Virus record (IMG/VR): IMGVR_UViG_3300042945_001946
Location: 1-28,304 of that record
DNA: 28,304 nt
Source: a virus
Strand: one strand, 5' to 3'
Positions within the stretch are counted from its first letter, which is position 1; every line of letters begins with the position of its first letter. Shown here one piece after another: positions 17,694-26,075 of the stretch. Made by a program: the position numbers and the translations under genes. The notes under the pieces are model-generated. The model did not search any database, was not told the origin of the DNA, and saw only the letters and a program-made list of their open reading frames with translations.

Positions 17694-17820
17694 CTCCTTA
17701 ATGGTTTAGGTTAAAGAGCGTTCCTTCAGTCGGCTTTTGCGTTCGCTATTCGGAAATAGCGAATGAACGTACCGTTCCGAGTCAACTTACTTCCGTCCCA
17801 TATGGGATGAACGTAGAGGT
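17694..17820 (-). ncRNA. Structured 5' leader of the DUF4278 transcript
   Basis: This stretch is non-coding, more GC-rich than its surroundings and full of pairing: TTCGCTATT/AATAGCGAA (17742-17763, 9 bp, 4-nt loop), a 12-nt palindrome TCCCATATGGGA (17796-17807), and GAACG/CGTTC near 17765-17777. TACGTTCAT occurs twice in the same orientation. It lies between a sigma-70-like promoter and the DUF4278 ribosome site. It could be a cis-regulatory RNA or a stable 5' region; no known riboswitch class was recognised. Confidence 0.5.
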
Positions 17821-22529: not shown

Positions 22530-22958
22530 TTATTGGTGCTTTTGTAGGTATTTAATCATTTCTTCAAGAAGATTTGGATTGTCTCCTACTTGTCCCAATA
22601 CAACATTACAATTTCTACAGAGCAACTGACGAACTTTTCCCGTCTTGTGGTCGTGGTCTACACAAAGTTTTTTCCATCTACCATCACCTTCACCCTTACA
22701 GATAGCACAGGCACCATTTTGTTCTTCATACATTTGTGTATGTTCATCAAGAGTAATTCCATAATTTCTTTTTAGGTCATTATTTCGTGTGCGTTCTGGA
22801 TTTTCTTCGTGCCTTTTTTTTACTCTTTCTTTATCACATTCTTTACATATAGAATGCCGAACCATAGAAACTTTATTTCTCACATAAAAATCCGTAGCAG
22901 GTTTTTCCTTACCACAGGTCATACAAGTTTTATAGAGGTCGGAGTACAGTTTAGTCAT
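22530..22958 (-). CDS. Endonuclease VII-type HNH endonuclease, probable psbA-intron homing enzyme (F-CphI-like)
   Basis: A 142-aa protein. An N-terminal zinc ribbon (C12/C15, C38/C41) is followed by an endonuclease VII-like HNH core: C84-x2-C87, D101-H-D-H104, TGKVRQLLC and C114-x2-C117, LGQVGDNP. It sits directly downstream of psbA, which has a group I intron. In cyanophage S-PM2 a free-standing endonuclease, F-CphI, is encoded at this place and cuts intronless psbA. Position and intron size are the same here, so the same role is likely. It has its own late promoter motif just after the psbA terminator. A general resolvase-type function remains possible. Confidence 0.8.
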   Translation of the reverse strand: MTKLYSDLYKTCMTCGKEKPATDFYVRNKVSMVRHSICKECDKERVKKRHEENPERTRNNDLKRNYGITLDEHTQMYEEQNGACAICKGEGDGRWKKLCVDHDHKTGKVRQLLCRNCNVVLGQVGDNPNLLEEMIKYLQKHQ

Positions 22959-23027: not shown

Positions 23028-24322
23028 TCAACCGATAGAAGGAGCAGTTAGAGCAACCGAAGTTGTTTCTGCTGCCGCTAGGTCTAAAGGAAAGTTGTGT
23101 GCATTCTTAAACTTTCCCTAACTATCTGATATTGCTATCAGGATTGGACTATATCATCACCATTTCTGGTGTCGGACGCTTATTCCTGTTATTAAGAGAA
23201 CTATATCTCTCAGGTAGTCTCTGAACCTTTCTCAGATGTATCTGAGACTTGGCTGCTGATTGCCCACTTGGGGTTTCCAGCAATTCATCCGATTTAAAGA
23301 GCGCAAAGCACAACTTGACGCTCGTGCATAACTTCCATACCCAACCCAGCTTTGTTCAATATGTCCGCCCAAGTAGGAATTACTTTGTTCTGACTATCAG
23401 TAATAGACTGGTTGAAATTAAATCCGTTCAGGTTGAATGCCATAGTAGAAACACCAAGAGCGGTGAACCAAATACCAACAACCGGCCATGCTGCTAAAAA
23501 GAAGTGTAACGAACGGGAATTATTAAAGGACGCATATTGAAAAATAAGGCGTCCAAAATACCCGTGAGCAGCTACGATGTTGTATGTCTCTTCTTCTTGT
23601 CCGAACTTGTATCCATAGTTCTGTGATTCATTTTCTGTCGTCTCACGTACAAGACTAGAGGTGACAAGAGATCCGTGCATAGCAGAGAAAAGAGAACCAC
23701 CGAAGACGCCAGCAACTCCCAGCATGTGGAAGGGATGCATAAGAATGTTGTGTTCTGCCTGGAAAACAAGCATGTAGTTGAAAGTTCCTGAAATCCCCAG
23801 AGGCATCGCATCAGAGAAGGATCCCTGACCGAAGGGATAGACCAGAAACACTGCGCTAGCAGCAGCAACGGGTGCAGAGTAGGCAACACAAATCCAAGGA
23901 CGCATACCAAGTCGGTAAGAAAGTTCCCATTCACGTCCCATGTAGGCATAAATACCAATCAGAAAATGGAATACGACCAATTGGAAAGGTCCACCATTAT
24001 ATAGCCACTCATCAAGTGACATTGCATTCCAAATAGGGTAAAAGTGAAGACCAATAGCGTTGCTAGAAGGAACAACAGCACCAGAGATGATATTGTTTCC
24101 ATACATTAGAGAACCAGCAACAGGTTCACGAATGCCGTCAATATCCACAGGTGGGGCGGCAATAAATGCGACGATGAAGCAAATGGTTGCTGCAAGAAGG
24201 GTAGGAATCATAAGAGTTCCAAACCAACCGACATACAAACGATTATCGGTTGAAGTAACCCACTCGCAGAAGTTTTCCCAAATGCTTTCACCACCGCGAC
24301 GTTGTGCGATAGTTGCAGTCAT
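23028..24322 (-). CDS. psbA: psbA, photosystem II D1 protein, two exons joined across a group I intron
   Basis: Exon 1 is 24322-23318 (335 codons); exon 2 is 23105-23028 (25 residues, [20 protein letters not shown] then APSIG, and stop). Together they give a 360-aa D1. The tyrosine-Z region, D170-equivalent (FSDAMPLG), H190/H198/H215-type residues and the H332-E333 equivalents (VMHER) are in exon 1. The D342 and A344 equivalents, needed for the Mn4CaO5 cluster and the mature C-terminus, are in exon 2, so unspliced RNA makes a useless protein (stop after seven intron codons). The residue equivalent to 130 is Glu, as in high-light D1 forms. The phage protein replaces photodamaged host D1 during infection. 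GGAG lies 8 nt before the ATG; a sigma-70 promoter and hairpin precede it. The gene looks more GC-rich than its neighbours. Confidence 0.97.
23106..23317 (-). ncRNA. Group I intron in psbA (212 nt, no ORF)
   Basis: The intron follows exon GAGCGT; the internal guide GCGCTC (7-12 nt after a short loop) pairs with it, giving P1 with the expected U-G at the splice site. It ends in G before AATGCAC. Conserved elements occur in order: TTGCTGGAAACCCC (P4 region), AATCAGCAGCCAAG (Q, 23261-23248), GTTCAGAGACTA (R, 23226-23215) and GATATAGTCC (S, 23155-23146); GACTA and TAGTC form P7. It contains no reading frame, so mobility would need the separate endonuclease. Length and site agree with the psbA intron of phage S-PM2. 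Confidence 0.95.
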
Positions 24323-24909: not shown

Positions 24910-25383
24910 TTATAGTTTTCTCCAAAGTTTTCCTTCAGCAATTCTTCTTCTCAATAATCCTGCTTCTACATCGCTTCCAGGATTTCTGTAAAGTTCAAGA
25001 GCAGCAGGAACTCTACCCCATTCTTTATTCTTAAGAACTCTGGTTATTGTGTCATATCCTCGACTATTATAAAAATTAGCACCAAGGTTATAAGCAAAAG
25101 ACAATAAAGCACCGCGCTGATAATCATTCATCTCACTCCAATAAGGTATTTGTTTCAGTGCTGAAAGAAATTCATTTTGAATCTGCCAATCAAATAATTC
25201 ATCTGCTTCCTTCTGACTAATCTTTTCTCCTAACTTAAAAGGACTTCCATCCTTCTTACGAGTGCTTCCCCATCCTATAGTATAAGGTTTTCCTTTAGTA
25301 TGAGGATCTGGATATGCTACTAATTTACATTTTTCAAATTCTTTAATGAGTTCTATTCCTTCTTTCAGAATAGAACTTTCTAC
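24910..25383 (-). CDS. GH24 lysozyme domain encoded in the -1 frame of the lysis gene
   Basis: 157 codons from the slippage point to the stop. T4-lysozyme-type catalytic residues are visible: Glu at local 17 (IKEFEK), Asp at 26 (AYPD, nine residues on as in T4 E11/D20) and Thr at 35 (YTIGWG). The usual helical part, with GALLSFAYNLGANF and a late GLLRRRIAEGKLW, follows. The frame has no ATG, GTG or TTG between its upstream stop (25393-25395) and the catalytic Glu; the first ATG (25131) lies after the active site. Translation therefore must come by -1 frameshift from the C39 ORF, giving a 388-aa two-domain endolysin, unless the A6 run is a sequencing error. The enzyme cuts the glycan strands of peptidoglycan at lysis. 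Confidence 0.8.
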   Translation of the reverse strand, partial: VESSILKEGIELIKEFEKCKLVAYPDPHTKGKPYTIGWGSTRKKDGSPFKLGEKISQKEADELFDWQIQNEFLSALKQIPYWSEMNDYQRGALLSFAYNLGANFYNSRGYDTITRVLKNKEWGRVPAALELYRNPGSDVEAGLLRRRIAEGKLWRKL

Positions 25384-25408
25384 TTTTTTACATTAAAGAT
25401 TCTTCCCC
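25350..25408 (-). promoter_or_regulatory. Candidate programmed -1 frameshift signal in the lysis gene
   Basis: In minus-strand order: GGGGAAG (25408-25402), a Shine-Dalgarno-like stimulator 12 nt ahead; heptamer A AAA AAG (25389-25383), in frame as GTA AAA AAG; the zero-frame stop TAG (25382-25380); a 6-nt spacer including that stop; then GTTCTATTC (25376-25368), a 9-nt loop and GAATAGAAC (25358-25350), a perfect 9-bp stem. This is the same set of parts, in the same order, as the E. coli dnaX -1 frameshift. Confidence 0.8.
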
Positions 25409-26075
25409 ATCCAGTCTTATCTTTTCCTTTCTCTAACCAACGATACATCAGATCAGACTTCTTATAAACGGCACCCTTTCCGTTCGTTACAGGTCCAGTA
25501 TATCCATCATTCAGAGAACCATAAGGATCATTTACAACATAATCTTCACCCTTCTTACCAATCACTACAACCATGTGCCCACCAGAAGGAGCAGATAGAG
25601 TACCCCTGTGATAGATCCCGATAACAATGGGTCTCCCAGCAGCAAGCTCACGATCAAGATCAGCAAAAGAAAGATTGTAACTAAAGTGTGACTTAACTCC
25701 ATAACCTTCCAGAACTTTTGTCTGAACAGTATGGTCAGTTGTGTCACCAATTGCAAATACTTTTTGAATATAAGCATCATCACCCTTTGCTCCTTGAAGA
25801 GTCCCTGGTTTAAAGTATTCTAAACACATTGCACAAGCAGATGAATTACAGGTTCTTTGAGCATCTCTGTAATTATCTGTTTGTGGATAATAAGGAACTG
25901 AGAGAACACCAGGAACTGTTGGTTTTGTTCTGTAAATACGAACCCAGTTTGAAGTATCATCAATCAAATCAGGATTCTTATCTGCAAGATCCACTTCAAG
26001 TTGCTCTACTGCAGCAACATGCTTTGGATTATTTTCATCAAAATTCTTAAAAAAATTGTGAAGGTCTATTCGCAT
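25380..26075 (-). CDS. C39-like cysteine peptidase domain, N-terminal half of a two-domain endolysin
   Basis: A 231-aa protein. After a ~50-residue helical lead comes a papain-like C39_2 domain: VPYYPQT (Q65), RTCNSSACAM with nucleophile C76, GRPIVIGIYH, then SGGHMVVVIG with H167 and VVNDPYG with D183. Such domains cut peptides, and in phage lysins probably the peptidoglycan stem. No signal peptide is seen, so export would need a holin. The zero frame stops with TAG right after a slippery A AAA AAG, and the -1 frame continues into a complete lysozyme. Two products are expected: 231 aa and 388 aa. A late promoter motif (26097-26104) lies upstream. Confidence 0.8.
   Translation of the reverse strand: MRIDLHNFFKNFDENNPKHVAAVEQLEVDLADKNPDLIDDTSNWVRIYRTKPTVPGVLSVPYYPQTDNYRDAQRTCNSSACAMCLEYFKPGTLQGAKGDDAYIQKVFAIGDTTDHTVQTKVLEGYGVKSHFSYNLSFADLDRELAAGRPIVIGIYHRGTLSAPSGGHMVVVIGKKGEDYVVNDPYGSLNDGYTGPVTNGKGAVYKKSDLMYRWLEKGKDKTGWGRIFNVKK

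Follow-up and report, generated by a model that had tools for sequence, protein, structure and literature searches.

A cyanophage two-domain endolysin gene apparently read by programmed -1 ribosomal frameshifting

Among tailed phages, the known cases of programmed frameshifting are mostly tail chaperone genes, together with some capsid genes. Possibly the sole earlier lysin tied to overlapping frames is the Lactococcus lysin that Shearman reportedly described in 1994 as two overlapping genes; it belongs to different phages, and we know of no conserved heptamer-hairpin family for it. With reference to Shearman 1994, a 2024 tool paper counts lysins among the genes in which a frameshift is known. 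Tail assembly chaperone G/G-T (Xu, Hendrix, and Duda 2004, cited in PMC3483164) gains a -1 extension from a site just before the 0-frame stop, in some phages with the heptamer A_AAA_AAG. That heptamer is slippery in Escherichia coli, where a single tRNA-Lys(UUU) reads both codons, and bacteria with a second lysine tRNA may rely on polymerase slippage (PMC5009743). Endolysins with a long and a short product from one gene are described for internal starts, as with CTP1L, LysIME-EF1, and Ply2638A (PMC4777826, PMC7098653, and PMC12203907; survey, PMC9430671), and in the staphylococcal phage phi2638A a long and a short endolysin made in this way speed progeny release (PMC12203907). The survey of such two-polypeptide endolysins covers internal starts only (PMC9430671), and the word endolysin is absent from the examined part of the text of a 2016 recoding review. 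We found no frameshift-made endolysin described in open-access text, and the sequence-only reading that drew attention to the present locus had known of none either.

The window, meaning the whole 28,304-nucleotide stretch of viral DNA that was analyzed (IMG/VR record IMGVR_UViG_3300042945_001946), carries on its minus strand an open reading frame (ORF) of 231 aa at 25380..26075. By domain content it fits a C39-like peptidase, with a Peptidase_C39_2 match over residues 58 to 185 (PF13529, E = 2.6e-13, 51 bits against a cutoff of 24) and a match to PHROG 3617 (E = 9e-89). The domain is preceded by an N-terminal module of about 55 residues, and a PDB sequence search with the predicted peptidase gave no match. 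The ORF ends GTA AAA AAG TAG, in which A AAA AAG (25383..25389, minus strand) is a slippery heptamer in the 0-frame register within the frame overlap, as an X_XXY_YYZ -1 signal has it, and the TAG (25380..25382) is the 0-frame stop directly after it. The -1 frame, 157 codons plus a stop at 24910..25383, reads V-E-S-S-I-L-K-E-G-I-E-L-I-K-E-F-E at its start and continues through a full Phage_lysozyme domain (PF00959, E = 2.4e-19) down to 24910. Its catalytic Glu codon is at 25335-25333 (minus strand), within KEFEKCKLVAYPD, its top fold matches are GH24 structures, and its closest solved relatives are phage lysozymes, so that by sequence it qualifies as a GH24 muramidase. Joined through the heptamer, the two domains would form a protein of 388 aa with the junction Val-Lys-Lys-Val-Glu.

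The GH24 frame of the window contains no ATG, GTG, or TTG ahead of the catalytic Glu. Its first ATG (25129..25131), from which the ORF list gives a 73-aa ORF, lies past the Glu codon and is not a usable start, as the sequence-only reading had said. The positions it gave for the C39 ORF end, the heptamer, a GGGGAAG element, and a hairpin all agree with the sequence. Its statement that the catalytic E, D, and T are spaced as in T4 lysozyme holds for the E-to-D distance, which is 9 as in T4; the D-to-T distance is 9 here and 6 in T4. Among relatives, dN/dS is 0.06 to 0.15 for the C39 domain (ten pairs) and 0.08 to 0.27 for GH24, which shows that both domains are under purifying selection and rules out a pseudogene.

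We consider it very probable that this locus is one two-domain endolysin gene, read by programmed -1 ribosomal frameshifting to give a peptidase of 231 aa and a peptidase-muramidase of 388 aa. Most ribosomes would end at the TAG and release the free C39-type peptidase as the main product, the stop directly after the heptamer ending the 0-frame product at once. A fraction of ribosomes, held by the hairpin, would slip from GTA_AAA_AAG to AAA_AAA with Lys-Lys unchanged and would read on in the -1 frame to yield, as the minority product, the 388-aa protein with its C-terminal GH24 muramidase. We infer the efficiency of the shift, the accumulation of both forms, and the fixed ratio that the sequence-only reading proposed, and also that the two would act jointly at lysis, cutting stem peptides and glycan strands; phi2638A offers an analogy.

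Relatives were collected by protein-guided scans of IMG/VR and a phage collection, which gave several hundred loci, and were classified by the reading frames of the C39 and GH24 domains relative to each other. The frameshift class is defined by a GH24 domain in the -1 frame where none of ATG, GTG, and TTG overlaps the 0-frame stop. With duplicates removed, it comprises 98 distinct junctions, which are related to one another and are not counts of independent events. In 97 of the 98, an X_XXY_YYZ heptamer lies no more than four codons from the 0-frame stop: A_AAA_AAG in 93, T_TTT_TTT in 3 (S-CAM7 and two contigs), and C_CCA_AAG in 1 (L437). The remaining junction, L428, has A_AAA_AAG and a 10-bp bulged hairpin, and its 0-frame stop is far downstream. 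The stops of the relatives are TAG (85), TAA (12), and TGA (1), and in nearly all they stand 0 to 3 sense codons from the heptamer. For 82 of 97 junctions, the open stretch of the -1 frame begins just 10 nt before the end of the heptamer, and therefore the frame switch must occur there. The open GH24 frame has no ATG anywhere in 91 of 98 junctions, and none of ATG, GTG, and TTG in 42 of 98; in the roughly half that have one of the three somewhere in the frame, an alternative start is possible in some relatives, and it is excluded in the window.

The heptamer is conserved as DNA, beyond what the protein requires. The third base of the codon preceding AAA AAG is invariably A, despite changes of residue among Val, Ala, Ile, Thr, and Glu (GTA 46, GCA 42, ATA 2, ACA 2, and GAA 1), and lysine codons elsewhere in the same genes are mixed (895 AAA and 549 AAG). 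A DNA scan blind to synonyms, looking for Trp-Gly-X-X-Phe-Asp-(Val/Ala)-Lys-Lys-stop (WGRIFD[AV]KK-stop) in every possible spelling, found 80 stretches, of which 36 were distinct; every one of the 80 was spelled GYA AAA AAG and had GH24 in the -1 frame. In a control class, where GH24 has its own ATG at an ATGA overlap, the heptamer is missing in 26 of 29 loci.

Downstream of the heptamer, at the roughly 5 to 9 nt where a -1 signal of this type has its stimulatory RNA structure, there is a hairpin. In the window the putative stimulator (25350..25376, minus strand) begins 6 nt after the heptamer and has a perfect 9-bp stem and a 9-nt loop; the inverted repeat is GTTCTATTC/GAATAGAAC, and counting a flanking A-U pair and a flanking G-U pair brings it to 11 bp. 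By itself it is not statistically compelling against synonymous shuffles (z = -1.3, p = 0.11), and it is the comparative data that make the signal far more than chance. A stem with a ΔG of -6 kcal/mol or lower follows the heptamer in 95 of 98 junctions (median about -12), and the first G-C pair is 6 to 9 nt past the heptamer in 90 of 98; L252 is nearly without a hairpin and L034 has a weak one. The z score against synonymous shuffles has a median of -2.1 at the frameshift junctions, compared to about 0 elsewhere and 0.0 in the control class, which shows no excess structure. Rfam has no model for the junction hairpin.

The stems fall into three main families that are mutually dissimilar (UCUAYUCC, ACAYCACA, and GCCAACYAAY), with rarer stems including CCCCACUAU and AAUCCACCCCA. 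The 3' arm encodes the conserved Gly-Val-x-Leu of GH24, and the 5' arm lies in the variable linker. Third codon positions in the 3' arm take all four bases and the 5' arm follows, as at the Gly codon, where the pair is A-U in 39, U-A in 25, G-C in 12, and C-G in 3. Covariation was tested across stem families because the alignment of the largest same-length subfamily is too uniform to show much of it. In an arm-swap test, the arms of the same locus paired at a mean of -15.6 kcal/mol versus -8.5 for arms from different loci, and none of 20,000 permutations paired as well. This test, and not the percentage of paired stem positions, which is 100% by construction, serves as the evidence for pairing. 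The heptamer, frame, stop, and covarying hairpin are thus kept over 98 junctions in related cyanophages, isolates included, which is the conservation that the sequence-only reading had proposed to look for and which strongly supports its claim that a -1 frameshift makes the C39-GH24 fusion.

That reading had also likened the set of elements to the dnaX cassette. The likeness to E. coli dnaX (tau/gamma) stands for A_AAA_AAG, for a downstream hairpin at similar spacing, and for a single tRNA-Lys(UUU) in the host proxy. A possible anti-Shine-Dalgarno pairing element, GGGGAAG (25402..25408, minus strand), lies in the window 12 nt upstream of the heptamer. However, this upstream element is not conserved in the lysin junctions: the Trp-Gly-Arg that GGGGAAG encodes is conserved but its DNA spelling is not, and a motif such as GGGGA or GGAG/GAGG/AGGA occurs within 20 nt upstream in 39 of 95 A_AAA_AAG junctions and is absent from the other 56, which rules out a conserved Shine-Dalgarno stimulator. 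The product logic is likewise reversed, in that the dnaX shift leads to a shorter protein and the lysin shift to a longer one, in another gene with another function; among the relatives, a possible dnaX polarity is seen only in ACG-2014f. The G/G-T tail chaperone has the longer -1 product but is a structural chaperone, whereas the part added to the lysin is an independent catalytic domain. Two-polypeptide endolysins share one stop and differ at their N termini through an in-frame internal start, while the products of the frameshift lysin would start together and differ at their C termini.

A fusion could be read without any ribosomal slip if RNA polymerase added an A, so that a share of the mRNAs carried A7. 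Thermus dnaX uses such slippage (PMC5009743), the site is a run of A6 (T8 in S-CAM7-type phages), and natural A7 templates do occur as plain fusions. However, the run is merely A6 and always stands as A_AAA_AAG in codon phase, with neither AAA AAA G nor longer runs enriched, and a hairpin 6 to 9 nt downstream is a ribosomal signature. Ribosomal slippage is further favored because the host proxy, Synechococcus RCC307, resembles E. coli in having a single tRNA-Lys(UUU), its 41 tRNA genes including none with CUU; the C_CCA_AAG of L437 argues likewise, since that locus keeps the frame and the hairpin with no useful homopolymer. We regard transcriptional slippage as very improbable. Termination at the TAG and reinitiation nearby on a non-ATG codon, giving a free GH24, strikes us as slightly less probable still. 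A -1 relation is also typical of ATGA overlaps, and relatives of the overlap class do make a free GH24 gene from ATGA or GTGA. However, the window has no ATG, GTG, or TTG before the active site, all three are missing in 42 of 98 relatives too, and no near-cognate codon is conserved at that position. Reinitiation would also leave the invariant heptamer and hairpin unexplained, and both vanish where a real ATG exists.

A homopolymer error in sequencing or assembly, the true gene being an in-frame A7 fusion, has next to no chance of being the explanation. It would find precedent in L120 and in L125, the latter with identical contigs from several assemblies, which have A7 in frame, and in a marine clade that is a plain fusion. 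However, the A6 run is seen again and again, in 93 distinct junctions and with identical sequence in two S-PM2 genome records, which rules out a plain sequencing error; the T8 version is common to three S-CAM7 isolates, and selection acts on the stop, the heptamer phase, and the hairpin.

With programmed ribosomal frameshifting as the preferred reading, it appears that in many phages infecting Synechococcus-type cyanobacteria a single gene yields the lysis enzyme in two lengths. In the isolate S-PM2 the site is GCA AAA AAG TAA with the stem GCUCUACUUC/GGAGUAGAGC, and across the gene the original record shows no difference from that of a deletion mutant, which was deposited separately. The GH24 of the frameshift locus is the sole PF00959 domain in the complete S-PM2 genome. 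GenBank lists for S-PM2 a hypothetical protein of 231 aa and, as a "putative lysin" (p154, L082:3957-4175), a 72-aa product that begins past the catalytic Glu, a fragment like the 73-aa ORF of the window. S-CAM7 is likewise wrongly annotated, its "lysin" (L089:2753-3025) being a C-terminal fragment without the catalytic Glu. These entries lack the Glu because the frameshift was missed, and standard annotation thus splits a two-domain lysin gene in two. A phage-borne tRNA-Lys(UUU) gene is present in S-PM2 and, of four further related phage contigs that were examined, in three; the phage loci are L274:453-527, L277:4752-4824, L278:713-787, and L279:520-594, and they might bear on slippage at A_AAA_AAG.

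The sequence-only reading had named homologs with a single continuous frame as evidence against itself, and such homologs were found in part. A marine clade has C39 and GH24 fused in frame, and two lineages, L120 and L125, are A7 fusions in which the hairpin is still present; that of L125, recurring as identical contigs in several assemblies, is probably real. The frameshift class stands nonetheless, with these fusions beside it or partly inside it. A predicted model of the natural L125 fusion has a confident GH24 matching phage lysozymes, a flexible linker at 231 to 239, and a C39 part of lower confidence. On the C39 tree there are at least 37 changes of architecture, and therefore the junction has often been shuffled. 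S-SRM01 keeps the heptamer, lacks the hairpin, and has an ATG where the frames overlap. In DSL-LC02 and DSL-LC03, GH24 is a gene of its own (L084:2767-3435 and L085:3024-3695) and begins with a copy of the N-terminal ~50 residues of the C39 protein at 50 to 54% identity, which suggests a shared binding or targeting module. The GH24 genes of the ATGA class (L046, L047, L053, L071, and others) begin with a different N-terminal module of about 55 residues (MSIKFIDAVKNHKDLPHQNDAWNFLQ...). S-CREM1 (L086:1938-3119) has a single ORF in the reversed order, GH24 and then C39, and the Met-Ala-Met at its domain border could act as an internal start.

The ACG-2014f fusions (L087 and L090 to L093) read GCA AAA AAG TCT GAG followed by a GGAGGG/CCCUCC hairpin, and a -1 shift there meets UGA at once. 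Such a signal would have dnaX polarity and would yield a short form. We treat it as a lead only because the clade is shallow and because the fused relative L405 has the heptamer without such a design; the L405 heptamer was judged to be chance, its near relatives spelling Lys-Lys as AAG AAG. A tentative and rather doubtful extension is that selection keeps the output of a short peptidase and a long peptidase-muramidase whatever the decoding, with most lineages shifting -1 to the long form, ACG-2014f shifting to the short form, and S-CREM1 possibly using an internal Met to make a peptidase; the ratio between the forms would then be a conserved lysis trait set by recoding.

What appears to be new here is the use of classical -1 frameshifting for a two-domain endolysin, with conservation over a large group of phages. 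If true, frameshifting sets the makeup of the infection-ending enzyme in widespread picocyanobacterial phages, and the three heptamers, several stem families, and fused and split variants form a natural series for studying what is gained from two lysin forms.

The window holds other features. Its psbA gene (23294-24322) is interrupted near the 3' end by a group I intron (23125-23327, minus strand; Rfam RF00028, 86 bits), the conserved D1 tail continuing in exon 2 near 23106-23030, and a short way downstream there is an HNH/endonuclease VII-like ORF (22530-22958). Glutamine riboswitches are known from cyanobacterial and cyanophage leaders, and one is present at 17715-17815 on the minus strand (RF01739, 48.9 bits).
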